64,000 nucleotides of DNA from a virus. Shown one piece after another: positions 2,026 to 24,759 of this stretch. The stretch spans positions 1-64,000 of the IMG/VR virus record IMGVR_UViG_3300017963_000203. One strand, given 5' to 3'. The notes under the pieces were generated by a model. It had not been told where the DNA came from. It worked only from the letters and a program-made list of their open reading frames with translations, and searched no databases. The position numbers and the translations under genes were made by a program. How positions within the stretch are numbered: position 1 is the stretch's first letter; each line of letters starts with the position of its first letter.

Positions 2026-2661
2026 ATGCTCGCGTTCGTAGACGGCGCCGTGGACATCAACCGGCGCCTGGACCAGGGCGGCGCGACCTTCGGAGGTGCT
2101 GGCGTCGTCCTGGTCCAACAGGACGCAGACAGCCTAACCTCCTACAGGGTCATCGGAGTTCCGTTCTGGCCCAACTCACTTCTCATCACCAACAACACCA
2201 TGGAGGTCATGGCCGCGAAGATCGCCTGCGACCTCTGGAAGCCGGAGAAGTCCGGCGAGATCCTTCACGTCTGGACCGATTCGGCGTACGTGAAGAACAT
2301 GCTCTCTTTCGGAACGGGGTATTCAGCCCAGAAAAACAAGGAGCTGATCGAGTACGCTCGACGCTTCTCATCTCGCGAAGACGTGATGTTTCATCACGTT
2401 CGCGGTCACAACGGATTCCCGTGGAACGAAATGGCAGATTTGTCGGCGAGGAAAGCCGTGACTCTCAAGAAGGGGTTCGACAAGACCTACGCCTGCAACA
2501 TCAGCCTCCTGTGTTTCCGATGTCGACGGTTCCCTTGCACAGGGGACAAGACCTTCGGCACAAAGAACGTGGCACTCGCCACTCCGAACGGTTACGCGGG
2601 AATCAGTGAGTGCGATCGCTATCAGATGGCGGACGTGGAAGGGTTCGGATCATGGGTGTAG
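2026..2661 (+). CDS. rnhA: Ribonuclease HI
   Basis: 211 residues. The RNase H fold is clear: first Asp in FVDGA (D6), Glu in NNTMEVMAA (E60), Asp in WTDSAYV (D85), and the HVRGH...WNEMAD segment giving His128 and Asp138. It hydrolyses the RNA strand of RNA-DNA hybrids, here probably Okazaki primers and R-loops. The family length is about 155 residues; the extra C-terminal 65 residues carry a Cys cluster (CFRCRRFPC) that may bind zinc. The start codon directly follows the TAG of the upstream gene, with GGAGG just before it. Confidence 0.9.
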   Translation: MLAFVDGAVDINRRLDQGGATFGGAGVVLVQQDADSLTSYRVIGVPFWPNSLLITNNTMEVMAAKIACDLWKPEKSGEILHVWTDSAYVKNMLSFGTGYSAQKNKELIEYARRFSSREDVMFHHVRGHNGFPWNEMADLSARKAVTLKKGFDKTYACNISLLCFRCRRFPCTGDKTFGTKNVALATPNGYAGISECDRYQMADVEGFGSWV

Positions 2662-3032
2662 AGGAAAGGATTACCCTGCAAGAGTGGGTTGAGGCCATAC
2701 AGGATGTGGCCAGCATCGAGAGGGCGTTGCGGGAGACGTCGAACCCTCAGAAGCAACACCTTCTGTTTCGGGCAAGGCAGGAAGCGGTGGAACGTGTCCT
2801 GGCCATGCGCTACCTGACCGGGGCCACCACGGATCGGATCGAGGCGATCCTCGAAACCGAGCAGTGGGCGGCCGCCTTCTATCAAGAACTCTCGGAGGAG
2901 CCGTCGGATGATATGGGTGAAGCCTATTCACGACTTGAGAAACACGGAGAGTCGCCTCCTGACGCCGGGGAAGTTTCCTCCTGGTATAGCAGCGCATCTC
3001 CCTTGCGTAGAGAACCTGAAAAGCAGGGATAG
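2652..3032 (+). CDS. Hypothetical protein
   Basis: 126 residues from ATG 2652, which overlaps the end of the RNase H gene. It is mostly helical in the first 85 residues (EWVEAIQDVASIERAL, then a second helix pair) and polar at the C-terminus. No family recognised. Its last 125 bases overlap the next gene in another frame, so the C-terminal third may be under dual coding constraint or the end may be mis-called. Confidence 0.55.
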   Translation: MGVEERITLQEWVEAIQDVASIERALRETSNPQKQHLLFRARQEAVERVLAMRYLTGATTDRIEAILETEQWAAAFYQELSEEPSDDMGEAYSRLEKHGESPPDAGEVSSWYSSASPLRREPEKQG

Positions 3033-3378
3033 AACCAGGAATACACTCTACGAAACGCCAACCACCGAATCACAAGCACGCTGCGTACGCGGCTGGGCGC
3101 CGCACATCGATACAGCGTTCTGCATCTCGGCATTTCACATTTCCTCGTTCTCGGTTCTTGACGACTGGGTTGAGTTCTTCGAGAAGTCTGTTCGGAAGAT
3201 CATTCGGAGCACCGATCTGCTGCTCGTCGTTGCCGTTCAGCGCGCCAGAACGGAAGACCTTCTCTTCCTGACTGACCTGCTGGACGCGAGAGCCAGGAAC
3301 GGTTTACCGACGATGGTGGACGACGGACGAGGAGACCGGTGGGTGGATGTCTACGAACAGGTCATCGAGGTGGGATGA
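2908..3378 (+). CDS. Possible helicase-loader-like protein
   Basis: 156 residues, ATG 2908, overlapping the preceding gene by 125 bases and the helicase start by ATGA. The C-terminal 75 residues (FSVLDDW, DLLLVVAVQRARTE, LTDLLDARARNGLPTMV) resemble the Walker-B/sensor half of DnaC/IstB-type loaders. There is no P-loop upstream, so this would be a truncated or diverged member. The position just before a DnaB-like helicase supports the idea; the sequence match is weak and the function is inference. Confidence 0.45.
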   Translation: MIWVKPIHDLRNTESRLLTPGKFPPGIAAHLPCVENLKSRDRTRNTLYETPTTESQARCVRGWAPHIDTAFCISAFHISSFSVLDDWVEFFEKSVRKIIRSTDLLLVVAVQRARTEDLLFLTDLLDARARNGLPTMVDDGRGDRWVDVYEQVIEVG

Positions 3379-4664
3379 TGGCGAAGAGGAAGCCGACGAT
3401 CGAGTCAAATCTTCTGACGCGCGTCGCCTGGAACCCGGAAGAAATGAAGGATCTCGAGCTTCGTGGCTTCGATCCGAATGCCTTGAGCGCACCCTATGCC
3501 GCCGCGTTCAAGGAGGCGACACGTTTCATGGTCATGTACGGAGAGTTCCCATCGGCCCAGACTCTGATGAGCCGGGTCAAGGGAATCGAAATTCAGCGGT
3601 CCTGTCCGAAGAGGAAAGCGATCGTCTACTGGGAGACCATTCGGTGGTGGCAATGGCGCAACGACCTGGTCGGCGTCATCCAGGAGGTCTCCGAGATGTT
3701 CCCGGACGAGCTGAAGGACAGTGACCAGTCGCTCGACCTTCCTATGATCACCCAGGCCGGCCTCACGAAGTTCTCGGAGGTGTCGGCCAAGTACGCCAGC
3801 GAAACGGAACGGCCGATCCTTCTCGCGGATGCAGTGGACGATCTGGTCCGGGAACAAGAAGATGCTGGGAGCATGCTCGCAATCCCCATCCCGTTCGAAT
3901 TCATTCAAGAGGAAATTCGCGGATTCAAGGCGGGCCAACTCTACATCGTTGCCGGCCGTCCCAAGACCGGCAAGACCTGGTTCGCTCTCATCTGCGCAGC
4001 CCACGCCCTGTCCCAGGGCTACAAGGTCCTGCTCACCTCCCTTGAGATGCGGTACATCGAAATCGCCAGACGCATGGCGTGCATCATCGGAAAGGTGTCC
4101 TACAACCGATGCGTCAAGCGATCATGGCGTCCGCGGGAGAAGAAGCGGTATTACGAAGTGCTGCGAAGCATCAAGAAAGGGAAGATCGGCCAGAGACTAC
4201 AGATCGTAGGGCCTGGGGTGGCGAAGGGTCCAGAAACCGTGGGCACGTTACACAAGGCGTTCGGTGCTCACTTCGTGGTCGTGGACGCCTTCTACAACAT
4301 GCAGTCCTCCGGGGAGAAGGAGTGGGAGCGCGTTCTTGCACTCATGCGCAAGTACCGACGCGTATCCCTACCGTCCGAGGCCGCGTGGATGCTCGTCACG
4401 CAATTCAACCGGGGCGGCCGCAGCCGGCGAGGGGCCAACCTGGACAACCTGGGCTTCTCCGATGCCATCGGGCAGGACGCCAACGCCCTCATGTACGTCG
4501 TGCGCCCAAATCACTTGAAGAAGGCCCGGCAGGTCGACCTGATCCTGGGCGAGGCACGGGAGGCCGACGACGCCGTCGCCTTCCGCCACTACTGGGACTT
4601 TGTGGAGATGAACTGGGAACCTGTAGGGGCCGTAGCCTACGGCTCTGACGACGAGGAGGTCTAA
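3375..4664 (+). CDS. DnaB-like replicative helicase
   Basis: 429 residues from ATG 3375 (ATGA overlap with the upstream gene). The N-terminal 165 residues are helical. The RecA-type core follows: Walker A GRPKTGKT at about 194-201, SLEM motif, Walker B (VVVDAFYN), and a late VTQFNRGG...IGQDANALMYVV block matching DnaB motifs H3/H4. It should form the hexameric 5'-3' fork helicase working with the primase encoded immediately downstream. It is somewhat shorter than bacterial DnaB (about 470) with a reduced N-terminal domain. Confidence 0.9.
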   Translation: MMAKRKPTIESNLLTRVAWNPEEMKDLELRGFDPNALSAPYAAAFKEATRFMVMYGEFPSAQTLMSRVKGIEIQRSCPKRKAIVYWETIRWWQWRNDLVGVIQEVSEMFPDELKDSDQSLDLPMITQAGLTKFSEVSAKYASETERPILLADAVDDLVREQEDAGSMLAIPIPFEFIQEEIRGFKAGQLYIVAGRPKTGKTWFALICAAHALSQGYKVLLTSLEMRYIEIARRMACIIGKVSYNRCVKRSWRPREKKRYYEVLRSIKKGKIGQRLQIVGPGVAKGPETVGTLHKAFGAHFVVVDAFYNMQSSGEKEWERVLALMRKYRRVSLPSEAAWMLVTQFNRGGRSRRGANLDNLGFSDAIGQDANALMYVVRPNHLKKARQVDLILGEAREADDAVAFRHYWDFVEMNWEPVGAVAYGSDDEEV

Positions 4665-5767
4665 TGGACGCCGCTAATCTGCGGAGCGTACTGGAGATGA
4701 TGGGGGCACGGCAGATCCGTCCGTCTGGCGCTGCCAGTTACTCCATCCACTGTTTCTTCCCAGGCCGACACAAGGGTGGCCGGGACCGCAAGCCGTCGAT
4801 GATCGCGTCCATCGACCCCACCGGAGCTTCCTGGTTGAAATGCTTCACATGCGGATACAACAAGACGCTCGCTCGAACCGTGAGAGAGATGTCGAGCCAA
4901 ACCCCCGGGGGCCGTCTCGCCGATCTCGCCGACTGGGTAGAGCGGAACGACGGAAAGATCCGTGGTGGCCCCATGGAGTTCCAAGAGAACAAGAGGAACT
5001 ATACGGAGCAGGCAAGAAGGCTCCTCGGCGTAAGAATGCCCCAGAGGGCCGTCGATTTTCTCAAGGAGAAAGGCATCTATGTCCGGGCCATCGTGGATCG
5101 ATACCTTCTGTGGGAGCCGGAAAAACGGGTCATCATCTTCCCCCACATCGTACGCCGTAAGGGACAGACCATCGTCATCGGTGCGCAGTGCAGAAAGCCC
5201 AGAAAGCCCAAGGGGGGCACGTCCAAGTACTGGCACCACTGGGAATACGACGCAAGATACCACCTCTACGGAGAGCATCTCCTGTCCGGCTGGCGCGGAG
5301 GCGTGATCCTCCTTGTTGAGGGTCAGCTCGATACCCTGCACTGCTGGCAGGAGAACGTGCCGGCCGTGGGGAACCTCGGGAAGGGATGGAACAGGTCCAA
5401 GGGCAAACTTCTCAGGAAATCCGGCATAAGAAGAGTGGTCCTGTTTTTTGACCCAGACGTCTACGAAGAGGAAGAATTTCCCATGGTCGTGTCCGATACG
5501 TTGAAACAGCTTCGCGAGGAGGGCATCGAGGCCGTGGAATACCGCGGAACCAAGGATCCCAAGTACTGTTCGCAGGACGAACTCCTGCATGCGCTGGAAA
5601 CCCCGTTGTTCAAAGGAGGAGTACATGGCCAAGAGGAAGGCAAGCGGTCTGGCCGGCATCAAGAACAAGATGAAGGAACGGCTCGACCCGAAGAACATGC
5701 CCGAAGAGCTGGGCATGATGGCCGGCGGCGCCCAAGACGCCGAAAACCAAGGCAGCTTCGGCCCTGA
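4664..5767 (+). CDS. DnaG-type primase (TOPRIM)
   Basis: 367 residues; its ATG overlaps the last base of the helicase stop. The N-terminus has a zinc-binding-like segment (HC at 29-30 and CFTCGY at 60-65). The TOPRIM core is seen as LVEGQLDTL (E219, D222) and FFDPD (D263, D265). It synthesises RNA primers and is expected to act with the DnaB-like helicase. It lacks an obvious long C-terminal helicase-binding domain. The last 48 residues overlap the next gene and are low-complexity Arg/Glu/Gln-rich, looking like read-out of the other frame. Confidence 0.88.
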   Translation: MDAANLRSVLEMMGARQIRPSGAASYSIHCFFPGRHKGGRDRKPSMIASIDPTGASWLKCFTCGYNKTLARTVREMSSQTPGGRLADLADWVERNDGKIRGGPMEFQENKRNYTEQARRLLGVRMPQRAVDFLKEKGIYVRAIVDRYLLWEPEKRVIIFPHIVRRKGQTIVIGAQCRKPRKPKGGTSKYWHHWEYDARYHLYGEHLLSGWRGGVILLVEGQLDTLHCWQENVPAVGNLGKGWNRSKGKLLRKSGIRRVVLFFDPDVYEEEEFPMVVSDTLKQLREEGIEAVEYRGTKDPKYCSQDELLHALETPLFKGGVHGQEEGKRSGRHQEQDEGTARPEEHARRAGHDGRRRPRRRKPRQLRP

Positions 5768-7247
5768 CATCTGGAGCCGTATCTGGCCCCACAGGTCGCC
5801 GTCCATCCCCAACAGCAAGGGGGAGCGAGCCAAGTCCTGGGAATGGTCCCTGAGCGAAGGCGAGGATGGCGACTGCGTGCTCGCAGAGATGCCGCGGCCC
5901 ATCCCGGTCCACCAGGTGTTCATCGGGTGGAAGGAGACGAAGAAGGGCAACTGGTTCGTGAAGGAATACGTGCGTTGCCTCGCCCGCAAGTACGTCTACG
6001 ACAAGACGGCCAAGGTCAGCGTCCAGACGCCGACGAAGGTCGCCTGTCCCTTCTGCCAGGTCCTGGGCGAGGACCGCTGGAGGGCGATCCAGGTCGGCGG
6101 CGTGGTGGACATGCGCGACCAGGACGAACCCTTCGTGGACGCCAACGGAACCCAGATCGAGACTCCGCCTCGGATGCTCCTCCTCATCAACGACGCCGCG
6201 CAGAAGGCGGTCCTCATGGGCCTCCGGGAGCGGGCGGCTCGGAAGAAGAACCTGATCGGAACCATCTTCCACGTGACTCGGGCAACCGGCAAGAACACGT
6301 CGAGGGTGGGGACGAACTGGATCCCCGACCTGGACGAGGAAGTCCCCATCAAGGACATCAAGCAGGTCTACTTCCCGATCGACCTGGACATGGCGTATCC
6401 GATCTTCCACGAGAAAGCGCGCCACCCGTTCAACAAGGGCGAGATCAAGGAGCTGCTCGACCACATGCTCGAGCGCCACGTCATGCTCTCCCTGAAGCAC
6501 GGACACAAGGTTCGGAAGGGCTTCGTGGGGTTCGACGCCCACGGCGCGGCGTCCTACGGCATCGACCTGGACGCCCTGAGGGAGGCGGACGACGGAGAGG
6601 AAGCGCCCTCCAGCGAGGACACGGAGCACGACGTTCCGGCCAAGCGCGGCCTCCGCATCATGGGGAGCGCGAGCGACGGACCGAGCCTCAACGATCTCAC
6701 CGACAAGGGAGACGACGAGGAGAGCTCCGATGAGGAGAGATCCGAGGAACCCGAGGGAAGCAGCGACGAGGGCATGCTCGATCCCGAGGACGTGGCCAAG
6801 TACAACAACGACGAGATCAAGGCTCTCGCCAAGGAGTGGGGCATCAGCCTCAAGGGCGCCGGCCGCTCGGTGGACGCCAAAAGGCTCGTCGTCCTGACAA
6901 GCTCCGAGGGCTTCGACATGGAGGAGGGCGAGGCGAAAGCGTTGCTCGGACTGGTGGAGGAGGAAGCCGAGGAGGCCGAGGGAGAGAGCGAAGGCGAAGG
7001 CGAGGAGGAAGGCGAAGGCGAGGAGGAAGGCGTCGACGTGGACGCGCTCGCCGTGAAGCTCCTGAACAAGGACGAGACCTCCATCACGGAGGTACGGGAG
7101 GCCGCCGAGAAGTACGGCGCGGAGGTCGCTCGTGACGGCAAGGGCCGAGTCCTGCGGAAAAAGACCGTGGAGAACCTGGTCGCGCACCTGGGCGGCAACG
7201 GAGAGGGCTCCGAAGCGCCGAGCGACCACAACCCCTGGGACGACTGA
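5625..7247 (+). CDS. Possible single-stranded-DNA-binding protein
   Basis: 540 residues from ATG 5625, chosen for the strong AAAGGAGG site; it begins 143 bases inside the primase ORF. It has a basic N-terminus (AKRKASGLAGIKNKMKERL), a central globular region of about residues 40-310 with a CPFC pair, and then about 200 residues rich in Glu/Asp. The protein ends in an acidic tip with an aromatic residue (NPWDD), the arrangement of SSB-type tails that recruit partners. The location between primase and polymerase supports an SSB role. No OB-fold signature can be proven by eye. Confidence 0.6.
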   Translation: MAKRKASGLAGIKNKMKERLDPKNMPEELGMMAGGAQDAENQGSFGPDIWSRIWPHRSPSIPNSKGERAKSWEWSLSEGEDGDCVLAEMPRPIPVHQVFIGWKETKKGNWFVKEYVRCLARKYVYDKTAKVSVQTPTKVACPFCQVLGEDRWRAIQVGGVVDMRDQDEPFVDANGTQIETPPRMLLLINDAAQKAVLMGLRERAARKKNLIGTIFHVTRATGKNTSRVGTNWIPDLDEEVPIKDIKQVYFPIDLDMAYPIFHEKARHPFNKGEIKELLDHMLERHVMLSLKHGHKVRKGFVGFDAHGAASYGIDLDALREADDGEEAPSSEDTEHDVPAKRGLRIMGSASDGPSLNDLTDKGDDEESSDEERSEEPEGSSDEGMLDPEDVAKYNNDEIKALAKEWGISLKGAGRSVDAKRLVVLTSSEGFDMEEGEAKALLGLVEEEAEEAEGESEGEGEEEGEGEEEGVDVDALAVKLLNKDETSITEVREAAEKYGAEVARDGKGRVLRKKTVENLVAHLGGNGEGSEAPSDHNPWDD

Positions 7248-8554
7248 TGAACGAATTGCGAATCCTCTACAACCTGATCGAGAGAGCAGGCGGGTTCGCT
7301 TTCGACTTCGAGGCAGTGGACGAGGAGGGTAAGCCGACCACGAATCCGCTTCGTGCGAAGCCTACCCTCCTGTCCATTGCCACCGGGGACAGGAAAGTCG
7401 TGGCCCTCTGCCTGGAGTGGAGCGACGAGGCGAAGAGATACCTCCGGTATCTTCTTAGCCAGCCCCACCTCGTGGCGGTGGCCCACTACGGTAACTATGA
7501 CTTTCCCGTAGCCCACTGGAACGGCATCGACCTCGAGGAGTCGGAGGCGACGTGGTCTGATACACGGCTTCTATGCTGGCTCCAGTTCGAGGACGACGAT
7601 CTCGGGCTGAAGCACCAGGTAATGAAACATCTCGACTACAAAATGCAGAGCTTCAAAAGCGCTGCCGAGTCGGACTTCGCCCAGCGTGCGAAGGACTTGA
7701 AGAAAGAGCTCAAGAGGCTCCCCATCGAGATGAGGAAACAACTTCAAGCAGCAAAACGGGATCTCAAGGCGCAACTGAAGGAGGAGAAACACGCCATCGA
7801 TACGGCGTGGCGAGGAAAGATCAAGGTCAAGGAGATCAACGCCAAGAAGAAGGAGGCGGCCGCCCATACAGATCTCATGATCTCCGACACAGAACTTCGT
7901 CTCCAAGAGGCAGCGGATGCCCGGGCCAAAGAGATCAAACACCTCATCAAGGAGAACGAAGCACTCTCCTGGAAGGTATTCCGGAAGTACGCTGTCGATG
8001 ACGCCAAGCAAACCTGGCGGCTATTCCGGAAGATGATGTCCTGGGTGAAGAAGGAGAAGATGCACCGTTGGCTCGACGTGGAGTTGGTGAACTATCGTGA
8101 ATCGATCATGATGGGAATTCGAGGGTCTTACGTGGACCAGACCCTCGCCGAGGAGATGATCGACGTGTCCGAGCCACTCCTCGATGAATTCCAGGCCAAC
8201 GTCTTCAACATGGCCAAAAGGGAGTTCAATCTCAACTCGGCCGTTGACATGGCCGAAGTGCTCTACCGTGATCTCGGGATTCGACCCCTCCCAGGAACTG
8301 GGCGTTCTCGACTGCCTGGGCTTCTCGACAAGCCATGGGGGTTCAACGCAGACAAGGAGGTCCTCGAGAGGCTCGACCATCCGATTGGGCAGGCCATTCT
8401 CGACTTTCGCTCCGTCCACACCATCTTCTCGAACTTCATGAAGGGGTTCCTGAAGCAAGCCCAAGAGGACCCGCTGGGCAAGAGCCGGGTCCACGTAAAT
8501 TTCAATTCCACCGGAACTGTGACCGGACGCTGGTCGTCCAGTACGCAGTCGTAG
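7247..8554 (+). CDS. polA-N: DNA polymerase I (family A), N-terminal part: 3'-5' exonuclease and thumb
   Basis: 435 residues. The proofreading exonuclease motifs are present: Exo I FDFE (D20, E22), Exo II GNYDF (about 83-86), Exo III YAVDD (Y248, D252). Unusually, about 95 lysine/glutamate-rich residues (about 140-235) predicted to form a long coiled coil sit between Exo II and Exo III. The protein continues into the polymerase domain and stops at TVTGRWSSSTQS, exactly where PolA enzymes continue with P-N-LQN-P. The rest of the polymerase is encoded at 9790-10887. It must associate with that half to be active (inference). Confidence 0.9.
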   Translation: MNELRILYNLIERAGGFAFDFEAVDEEGKPTTNPLRAKPTLLSIATGDRKVVALCLEWSDEAKRYLRYLLSQPHLVAVAHYGNYDFPVAHWNGIDLEESEATWSDTRLLCWLQFEDDDLGLKHQVMKHLDYKMQSFKSAAESDFAQRAKDLKKELKRLPIEMRKQLQAAKRDLKAQLKEEKHAIDTAWRGKIKVKEINAKKKEAAAHTDLMISDTELRLQEAADARAKEIKHLIKENEALSWKVFRKYAVDDAKQTWRLFRKMMSWVKKEKMHRWLDVELVNYRESIMMGIRGSYVDQTLAEEMIDVSEPLLDEFQANVFNMAKREFNLNSAVDMAEVLYRDLGIRPLPGTGRSRLPGLLDKPWGFNADKEVLERLDHPIGQAILDFRSVHTIFSNFMKGFLKQAQEDPLGKSRVHVNFNSTGTVTGRWSSSTQS

Positions 8555-8562
8555 GAGGGCCC

Positions 8563-9435
8563 ATGAGGATCATGAACGACCCGTTCATCACGGGACCTGA
8601 CAACATCATCCAGAACGACGGCGAACTGGACATCATCTTCCTTGGCGTGGGCTCGGCCTTCGCCAAGGAACACTTTCAGACGAGCATCCTCATCGTGAAG
8701 GGAAAGACCCACGTGCTCGTCGACTTCGGCATGGACGGCCCGCGCGCTCTCGCGAAGGTGGGCCTCGGCATGCAGGACATCGTGAACTTCCTCCCGACGC
8801 ACTCCCACTCCGACCACGTGGGCGGCGTCGAATCCCTGGCCCTGTTCAACCGCTACGTGGCGCAGCGGTTCATGAATAAGCCCAAGCTCAACTGCATCAT
8901 CACACCCGAGTACCAGAGGATTCTCTGGGACTACACGCTTCGTGGCGGCTTGGAGTGGAACGAGGAGCAGGCCGACGGACGCCGGCGACTGAGCTTCGGG
9001 GATTTCTTCAAGATCACAACACCCCGTTGGAAGACATCCATGCCCAGGGAGATCCACGAAGTGGGCGTCGGGGACCTGAAGCTGGAACTGTTTCGAACCA
9101 ACCACATCCCCGAGCAGGCGCCGAACTGGGAGGCGTCGTTCGTCTCCTACGGCCTGTTCATCGACGACCGTGTCTTTTTCTCCAGCGACTCCCAGTTCGA
9201 CCCGGAGCTCGTGCGCTACTACGACCAACAGTGCGGCCACAGGCACGTCGAGCACTTCTTCCACGATGTTCAGTTCTTCCCCGGCGCCGTGCACGCGCCA
9301 CTCGCTGATCTCAAGACCCTTCCTGCTGACATCAAGAAAAACATGACCCTCATGCACTATTCCGACGATTGGGGAAAGCAGGACATCTCTGACTTCGCCG
9401 GATGGGCCCAGGAAGGCGCCGCGTACCGTTTCTGA
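8563..9435 (+). CDS. Metallo-beta-lactamase-fold hydrolase (RNase Z / cyclic-nucleotide phosphodiesterase type)
   Basis: 290 residues, ATG 8563 preceded by GGAGGG. The MBL signature THSHSDHVGG (H80, H82, D84, H85), a further His in RTNHIP (H181), SSDSQFD (D209) and LMHYSDDW (H265) give a full two-metal site in RNase Z-like order. Such enzymes cleave phosphodiesters: tRNA tails, or cyclic nucleotides as in the Apyc1 anti-Pycsar proteins of phages. The gene sits between the two halves of the split DNA polymerase. Substrate cannot be told from sequence; an anti-defence role is a hypothesis. Confidence 0.85.
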   Translation: MRIMNDPFITGPDNIIQNDGELDIIFLGVGSAFAKEHFQTSILIVKGKTHVLVDFGMDGPRALAKVGLGMQDIVNFLPTHSHSDHVGGVESLALFNRYVAQRFMNKPKLNCIITPEYQRILWDYTLRGGLEWNEEQADGRRRLSFGDFFKITTPRWKTSMPREIHEVGVGDLKLELFRTNHIPEQAPNWEASFVSYGLFIDDRVFFSSDSQFDPELVRYYDQQCGHRHVEHFFHDVQFFPGAVHAPLADLKTLPADIKKNMTLMHYSDDWGKQDISDFAGWAQEGAAYRF

Positions 9436-9445
9436 GGATGGATCA

Positions 9446-9790
9446 ATGCCCCAATCGCCAGATCCGTACCCGATGTTCCTCGAGGCCATGAAGAAGGCAA
9501 CGTCGGGGATCGGAGAGAATATGCAGGGATTCTCCGTGTGCTTCGCCGCCAAGAAGATCGACCACCCAGACGGCGACAACTTCCCCGGAGTCCCTGACGA
9601 CCAGCTCGTCTACACATGGGCCCAAGGCGGGCCGCCGGTAGTCGTGAATATGATCTACCTCGAACTCGCTGTCAACCTGCTCGAGCAGTTCATACAGAGC
9701 AACCGTGGGAACCTCTACATCGCCATGGAAATGATGAAGGCGAAGGTTCTCGAGAAAATGATGGGCAGGGAACGACAAAGGAGACCCTGA
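9446..9790 (+). CDS. Hypothetical protein inside the split polymerase locus
   Basis: 114 residues. No family recognised. It has a central beta-rich region and a C-terminal amphipathic helix (LELAVNLLEQF..., EMMKAKVLEKMM). Its TGA overlaps the ATG of the polymerase C-terminal gene (TGATG), so the two are translationally coupled. Together with the MBL gene it makes up the 1.24 kb that separates the two polymerase halves. Confidence 0.75.
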   Translation: MPQSPDPYPMFLEAMKKATSGIGENMQGFSVCFAAKKIDHPDGDNFPGVPDDQLVYTWAQGGPPVVVNMIYLELAVNLLEQFIQSNRGNLYIAMEMMKAKVLEKMMGRERQRRP

Positions 9791-10887
9791 TGGCGCAGTT
9801 GCAGAACGTACCATCGAGGTCCAAGCCGCAGGAGTATGACGAGAGGATACAAAAATTGGGGCCGCGCATCCGCATGATGTTCGTGGCCCCGCCTCCGGAC
9901 GAATTCTCGCCGGAGGGATACGATCTCATCGTCATTGACGAATCGCAGCTTGAACTCAGGCTCGGAGCCCAGTTCACCAAGGACCCGACTCTTCTTTCCG
10001 TCTACAAGCGGTTCGTGGACGTGGGCGGAATGGTCTTTTACGTCGGCGACATCCACGCCGAAACAGCGCATCGAATGGAGGTGCCAAGGAAGCTGGCGAA
10101 GAACCTCAACTTCGGGCTCATGTACGGAATGAGTCCGGCCAGCTTCGCGAGGTATGCCAAGCTCTACGTTCCTGGGACGAAAACCTACGACGTGCGATCC
10201 GCTGAGGTGTACGTCCAGGGCTTCCGTCGAACCTATTCGGGGGTCTTCAACTACCACGAGAAACTGCGAAGGCGCTGGAACGAAGGGAAGCGATCATTCC
10301 TCATGCTCAGTGGACGGTACCGCCACTTCCCCAAGTGGGCCCGCGTCTCCCCCGGTACCGTGTATAACTCGAAGATTCAGGGCTCGGCTGCCGACGTCAT
10401 GAAAGTCCAACTCTGGGCCATCAAGAAGTGGATCCTGTCCAATCCAGAATTCGAGGGACTAAAACCCTTGATTCAGGTTCACGACGAGTTTATCTTCGAG
10501 GTTCCAAAGCGGATCTCACAGAAGGCGGCTGTGGCGTTGAAATACGTCATGGAGTACCCGTTCTTCGATATGGACGTTCCGCTGCTGGCGTCAGCCAAGG
10601 TGTGTCAGAACTGGGCAGCCAAGGATGACGACAGCATCCCGGAGATAGGCACGTTCTACGCGCAAATCGACGGGAAGGACCGGCTATTCAGGCCGGACCA
10701 ATGGAAGAAGTATCTCGCTGTGGAAGAGAAGACCACGCAGAAGTCTTGCGTGGCCATGCTCTCCCCGAGACAGAAGGCGTGGGCCAGAACGCTCCTGCCC
10801 AAGAGCATTCCTACGTTCGGGGGGCGGAGCAAGGGGCTCAGTATCATGTCCCTCGATGAGTACAGGAAGAGAAAGGAGAGCCAATGA
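9790..10887 (+). CDS. polA-C: DNA polymerase I (family A), C-terminal part: polymerase palm/fingers
   Basis: 365 residues from ATG 9790 (AAAGGAG upstream). It opens with MAQLQNVPSR, continuing the PolA sequence interrupted in the N-terminal gene. Motif A is IDESQLELRLGA (catalytic D50; the usual Tyr after it is Glu), motif B is RKLAKNLNFGLMYG (R100, K104, F108, Y112), motif C is QVHDEF (D232, E233). All catalytic carboxylates are present, so the half is not degenerate. About 80 extra residues follow motif C. It needs the primer-binding/exonuclease half made from 7247-8554. Confidence 0.93.
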   Translation: MAQLQNVPSRSKPQEYDERIQKLGPRIRMMFVAPPPDEFSPEGYDLIVIDESQLELRLGAQFTKDPTLLSVYKRFVDVGGMVFYVGDIHAETAHRMEVPRKLAKNLNFGLMYGMSPASFARYAKLYVPGTKTYDVRSAEVYVQGFRRTYSGVFNYHEKLRRRWNEGKRSFLMLSGRYRHFPKWARVSPGTVYNSKIQGSAADVMKVQLWAIKKWILSNPEFEGLKPLIQVHDEFIFEVPKRISQKAAVALKYVMEYPFFDMDVPLLASAKVCQNWAAKDDDSIPEIGTFYAQIDGKDRLFRPDQWKKYLAVEEKTTQKSCVAMLSPRQKAWARTLLPKSIPTFGGRSKGLSIMSLDEYRKRKESQ

Positions 10888-24397: not shown

Positions 24398-24759
24398 GGG
24401 GGCGTAAAGGGTTCGACTGGGTAGTGAAAGGATACCTTGCGTGCCGTGGTTGGTCGGTCACCACGTTAAAAGCCGCCCACACTTTTAAGTGCCAATCCAA
24501 ACACTGGGAGCTTCACCGCTCCCCTCGCAGCGGTCGCTTAGACCCCTGCCCTCAAACCGGCGAGGTTCCGTAGCTGGGGCGAGGCCGTTCACGGGACTGG
24601 ATCGGCAGAGCTGGTCGTCTGCTGGTTGAGAAAAGACCTGGCTTCGTCGGGTGGAAAGAACCCGAATAGGTTGCCGGCTCTCGAAAGAACCGGATACGCG
24701 CGTAGACAGGTACTGGAAACTGCTTCAGGACGTGGGTTCGATTCCCACCGCCTCCACCA
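24398..24759 (+). ncRNA. ssrA: Transfer-messenger RNA (tmRNA)
   Basis: A complete 362-base tmRNA. The acceptor arm is GGGGGCG / CGCCTCC with the G3.U pair that marks alanine charging, followed by discriminator A and an encoded CCA. The 5' part GGGGGCGTAAAGGGTTCGACTGGG and T-arm GTGGGTTCGATTCCCAC are canonical. The tag reading frame starts at 24491 (GCC after TTAAGT) and ends at TAG 24539-24541, giving ANPNTGSFTAPLAAVA, a hydrophobic end typical of ClpXP-type degrons. It rescues stalled ribosomes and tags the nascent chains. It sits between two intrinsic terminators. Confidence 0.95.

Follow-up and report, generated by a model that had tools for sequence, protein, structure and literature searches.

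The family A DNA polymerase (PolA) of this phage of bacteria is encoded as two separate chains by two genes. Both genes are located in the window, the whole stretch of 64,000 nucleotides that was analysed, which is part of a 130,894-base IMG/VR virus record (131 kb). They are separated by a gap of 1,235 bases that contains two further genes and are preceded by other replication genes (Table 1). The gene directly upstream of the N-chain occupies the position of a phage single-strand-binding-like gene and may have this putative function. A complete tmRNA gene is also present in the window at 24398-24759 on the plus strand (Rfam RF00023, 136.7 bits), for which ARAGORN reports the tag peptide ANPNTGSFTAPLAAVA.

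Table 1. Genes at the split polymerase locus, with positions in the window.
Feature	Position	Strand	Description
DnaB-like replicative helicase	3339..4664	+	PF03796, E 3e-20
DNA primase	4664..5767	+	phrog_47, E 5e-15
Acidic-tailed gene upstream of PolA N-chain	5622..7247	+	Order as in related records L003 and L012
PolA N-chain, 435 aa	7247..8554	+	3'-5' exonuclease, K/E-rich insertion, thumb, first palm part to TGRWSSSTQS
Putative cyclic-nucleotide phosphodiesterase of the Apyc1 family, 290 aa	8563..9435	+	Metallo-beta-lactamase fold; PF23023
114-aa protein	9446..9790	+	Orthologue of a 118-aa ORF at the same site in L003
PolA C-chain, 365 aa	9790..10887	+	LQN-P, motif A, motif B, motif C; begins MAQLQNVPSR

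The N-chain matches positions 13-124 of the Pfam DNA_pol_A profile PF00476 (E 3e-16), and the C-chain matches positions 128-380 of its 381 (E 2e-39). Together, the two chains span the profile end to end with an overlap near nil. The open reading frames and the divided profile confirm the original prediction, made from the sequence, that PolA is split between two genes just before LQN-P. The exonuclease domain of the N-chain matches PF01612 with an E of 5.6e-5 and a score of 23.5 bits, where the cut-off is 23.6. The catalytic motifs of the C-chain are present as DESQLELR (motif A), RKLAKNLNFGLMYG (motif B), and QVHDE (motif C). All the exonuclease and polymerase motifs were expected across the halves, and those that were searched are kept, with PF01612 at its cut-off.

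Each chain was also expected to have its own ribosome site, with two genes in a 1.24-kb gap, and this is what is found. Shine-Dalgarno-like sites can be read from the sequence ahead of the Apyc1-like gene (TAGGAGG-gccc-ATG, where TAG is the stop codon of the N-chain), ahead of the start of the 114-aa gene at 9446 (AGGA), and ahead of the C-chain start at 9790 (AGGAG-accctg-ATG). The stop of the 114-aa gene and the start of the C-chain overlap in TGATG.

The break lies inside a conserved motif that reads SSSxPN-LQN in whole relatives. In Pol I, this motif presumably contacts the minor groove of the primer-template. In the window, the N-chain ends with SSSTQS and the C-chain starts with MAQ-LQN. 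The conserved PN is thus replaced on both sides, and joining the halves does not restore the sequence exactly, contrary to the earlier claim that they rebuild a continuous PolA. Near-identical 8-mers of the form CGCAGTYG are found at the two break points, CGCAGTCG at about 8543-8551 and CGCAGTTG at about 9794-9802, and excising the insert together with one copy would leave an open frame. This near-repeat is short and absent from L003 and is probably due to chance.

Two insertions are observed within the chains. A long K/E-rich, coiled-coil-like insertion at about residues 150-235 of the N-chain separates the exonuclease from the polymerase parts. It is also found in L003 and has other lengths in whole relatives. 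An insertion of seven residues, with the pattern PPPDE(F/W/L)(A/S), lies ahead of motif A at residues 34-40 of the C-chain (about 9886-9912). This insertion is common to the whole PolA of L012 and L112, is altered in L116, and is absent from L003; judging from this distribution, it is probably ancestral and was lost in L003.

A search of related phages for the same split and for an unsplit form had been proposed, and both are found. In L003, a 136-kb record, PolA is 52% identical to that of the window and is broken at the same point, with an N-chain that ends GRWSSSTG and a C-chain that begins MAQLQNIPSR. L003 has a gap of about 340 bases that is taken up almost entirely by the 118-aa ORF and does not contain Apyc1. 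PolA is whole in L012, L013, L112, and L116. It is also whole in L006 and L007, where LAGLIDADG inteins are present at motif B. The intein-bearing genes extend over 5493-8876 in L006 and 5463-8735 in L007, and the insertion sites of the inteins differ slightly, following RKLAK in one case and KNLNFGL in the other.

The best 80 loci of the polymerase scan are whole at the break point in 78 cases; the remaining two are L003 and a locus truncated by the end of its contig. In the trees, the window and L003 form one clade with a support of 100/100 among whole relatives. They are the only two split members found in this clade, and both are metagenomic. The break is real, derived, and old, and the simplest reading of the sequences is a single fission in the common ancestor of the window and L003. 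Apyc1 was either gained by the window lineage after the split or lost from the L003 lineage.

Both split records retain all the polymerase motifs and every exonuclease motif that was searched for. Identity between the window and L003 is 45% for the N-chain, 60% for the C-chain, and 47.5% for the primase. Between the window and L012, where PolA is whole, it is 33% for the N part, 45% for the C part, and 33% for the primase. Because these identities are about equal to those of the primase, the halves show no faster decay than a gene close to them. Primase-level identity and the kept motifs point to purifying selection on both pieces. The C-chain alone is predicted to fold as a PolA palm and fingers, and Foldseek matches its model to KlenTaq (4bwm, E 2e-12) and also to Klenow. 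Confidence in this model is moderate (mean pLDDT 66), and its first 23 residues, which directly follow the N-part in whole PolA, are unreliable.

A full-length polymerase elsewhere in the genome would make the pair dispensable. None was found in the 130,894-base record, which is possibly a fragment: PF00476 has no match beyond the two halves, and the profiles of family B (PF00136) and family C (PF07733) polymerases have no match. The locus is best read as encoding a two-chain polymerase, and this reading is well supported, since L003 is split alike, unsplit relatives exist, the split records form one clade, the motifs are kept, and no other polymerase was found. From the architecture, conservation, and phylogeny of the split, we infer that the chains co-assemble and are active, and the two-gene PolA is probably functional. 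In Aeromonas phage 25, the chains of the split gene 43 co-purify and show polymerase activity (PMC2988022).

The first gene in the gap belongs to the Apyc1 family. Its product scores 108.5 bits against PF23023, where the curated cut-off is 50, and its best phmmer match among solved Apyc1 structures is 7u2r (E 9e-34), followed by 7u2s and 7t28. In Apyc1, the HxHxDH motif coordinates two zinc ions, and the catalytic residues E74 and Y112 are contributed by the opposing protomer (PMC9117128). The window protein has HSHSDH at residues 80-85, and the further metal-site segments NHIP, SSDSQFD, and LMHY align with solved Apyc1. The position of E74 is kept (HVGGVES); that of Y112 is a W when the protein is aligned to 7t28, if the numbering is offset by one residue. 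Family membership and conservation of the metal site are the basis for the putative phosphodiesterase activity, which in an Apyc1 enzyme would be expected to act on cCMP and cUMP. The product is a putative anti-Pycsar protein that would likely shut off a bacterial cyclic-nucleotide alarm signal.

This protein shares with the published Apyc1 (PMC9117128; PF23023) its sequence family, its metallo-beta-lactamase fold, and its HxHxDH metal motif. Phage Apyc1 is known mainly from Bacillus phages. Two phage Apyc1 genes that were inspected are free-standing, near ribonucleotide reductase and outside polA, whereas the gene described here sits inside a split polA. No Apyc1 homologue was found in eight related virus records (L003, L012, L013, L006, L007, L112, L116, and L115), and a pattern search of IMG/VR returned no close viral relatives.

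The second gene in the gap encodes the 114-aa protein, which matches the 118-aa ORF of L003 (7676-8029) with a BLASTP E of 2e-5. It matches no family of Pfam, PHROGs, or NCBIfam, and its predicted fold, from a poor model, has no match either. No homologue was found elsewhere in six records, including L012, L013, L006, and L007, and a search for more viral relatives returned none. The gp14 protein of phage MEP401 was considered as a member of the same family and rejected; BLASTP between gp14 and the L003 ORF gives only an E of 0.014, and profile comparison with hhalign gives a probability of 0.1%. The codon usage of both gap ORFs matches that of neighbour genes, and shifted or reverse frames match much less well. 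This suggests that both ORFs are coding and gives no sign that either is very recent.

Split replication genes are known from other phages. The PolA of MEP401 and MEP402, Methylophilales phages of the Zobellviridae, has been published as split with a small ORF (PMC10580990). As in the window, the exonuclease and the first part of PF00476 are on one chain, the rest of PF00476 is on the other, and the small ORF lies between. The break, however, is about 15-20 residues further downstream, after LQNFDGE... and before motif A. The MEP401/MEP402 PolA belongs to a distant clade, its small ORF is not recognisably homologous to that of the window, and no anti-defence gene is present. The tree and the different break position indicate that the two fissions are independent.

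All 52 loci examined among the MEP401-like relatives in IMG/VR are split (52/52); these were retrieved by querying with the C-half, a search that does not favour split genes. Their gaps range from an overlap of 17 bases up to 635 bases. Several unrelated ORFs occupy them, one of which encodes a winged-helix protein (PF14090). One of these loci, L109, has an HNH endonuclease between the halves at about 2366-3001 (phrog_3322, E 8e-29). These loci suggest that, once polA is broken, the break persists while different genes come to occupy the gap. The same pattern appears to apply in the window, with a putative anti-defence occupant.

The replicative polymerase of Aeromonas phages 25 and 44RR, the product of gene 43, is likewise made in two chains with an insert between their genes (PMC2988022). 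This polymerase is of family B (PolB), and the insert is a seg endonuclease or untranslated intercistronic sequence. As reviewed in PMC2988022, insertion of mobE has broken nrdA, an essential gene of phage Aeh1 whose product is still functional. That enzyme is a different one, and its insert is described there as a homing endonuclease, which is not seen in the window. What is new in the window is genes in pieces with an unusual break inside SSSxPN-LQN and an Apyc1-family gene in the gap; the phenomenon itself is known. No report of an anti-defence gene in a split-polymerase gap was found in the open-licence literature searched.

An inserted gene is the best cause for the break. A more specific version of this cause, compatible with the best explanation, is that a free-standing homing endonuclease broke the gene, that the 114/118-aa ORF either descends from it in decayed form or took its place later, and that Apyc1 came afterwards. 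HNH endonucleases split phage genes elsewhere, namely Aeh1 nrdA and T4 gene 60 (PMC2988022). In the independent MEP401-like clade, L109 has an HNH gene between the halves, and the LAGLIDADG inteins of L006 and L007 lie in the same gene at another site. However, no homing endonuclease is present in the junction of the window or of L003, and the 114-aa protein has no endonuclease match among the families or folds searched, the model being poor. A past homing endonuclease is a possible cause, although the odds are somewhat against it.

Loss of the polymerase, with the halves as remnants and the phage using a host polymerase, would fit the lost PN of SSSxPN-LQN. It is improbable given that both halves are open, the catalytic motifs are complete, the split pair retains 45-60% identity with primase-like conservation, the operon is intact, and the record contains no other polymerase that could be found.

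A self-splicing intron of an unrecognised class could excise the insert from the mRNA and give a single PolA. The halves could be joined in frame, and PMC10580990 cites work in which group I introns occur in PolA genes of phages. Yet neither the window nor L003 has an Rfam intron match even at a permissive threshold, the gap of L003 is almost wholly coding, and both halves come with a start, a stop, and a ribosome site of their own, with PN changed on both sides. This is very improbable.

A split intein that trans-splices the halves has a negligible chance of being correct: an endonuclease between split-intein halves is known, for example in PolB of phage MIJ3 (PMC6892783), but here the N-chain stops two residues past SSST and only MAQ precedes LQN, which leaves no room for intein fragments. 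An assembly artefact is just as remote, as the window does come from a metagenomic contig but L003 shares the split, the gene order, and a homologue of the small gene. The earlier suggestion of a past mobile intron, intein, or gene insertion that became fixed and gave a two-subunit polymerase is well supported for the fixed fission and the two chains, based on L003, the tree, and the motifs. It is not supported for an intron or intein as the cause, given the lack of an Rfam match, the small gap of L003, and the absence of split-intein sequence at either end.

The best explanation, and one that merits good confidence, is that the PolA gene has undergone a permanent split in two, that the chains assemble as one enzyme, and that the junction has become a gene slot. 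DNA would have been inserted between the SSS and LQN codons in the ancestor of the window and L003, and each side of the break would then have acquired its own stop, or its own start and ribosome site. The two chains, expressed from one operon, would fold together into one exonuclease/polymerase. The junction would have become a tolerated slot for further genes, with the 114/118-aa gene in both split records. In the window lineage, the slot would also hold the Apyc1-family phosphodiesterase, probably made together with the replication proteins, and this enzyme would destroy cyclic nucleotide alarm signals. That the gap serves as a gene slot is suggested by two clades.

A broader and rather speculative idea is that the sites at which phage polA breaks act repeatedly as docking sites, with the gap as a protected slot through which small genes, homing endonuclease genes, and anti-defence genes pass. 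A counter-defence gene such as the phosphodiesterase would be acquired via the slot, and would be locked into and co-expressed with an essential replication operon.

A natural two-chain PolA shows where a single-chain polymerase can be cut within the palm and probably still work. The putative anti-defence gene between the halves suggests a route by which counter-defence genes may enter replication operons and be retained there. It also offers a search rule, which is to inspect the gaps of split essential phage genes.
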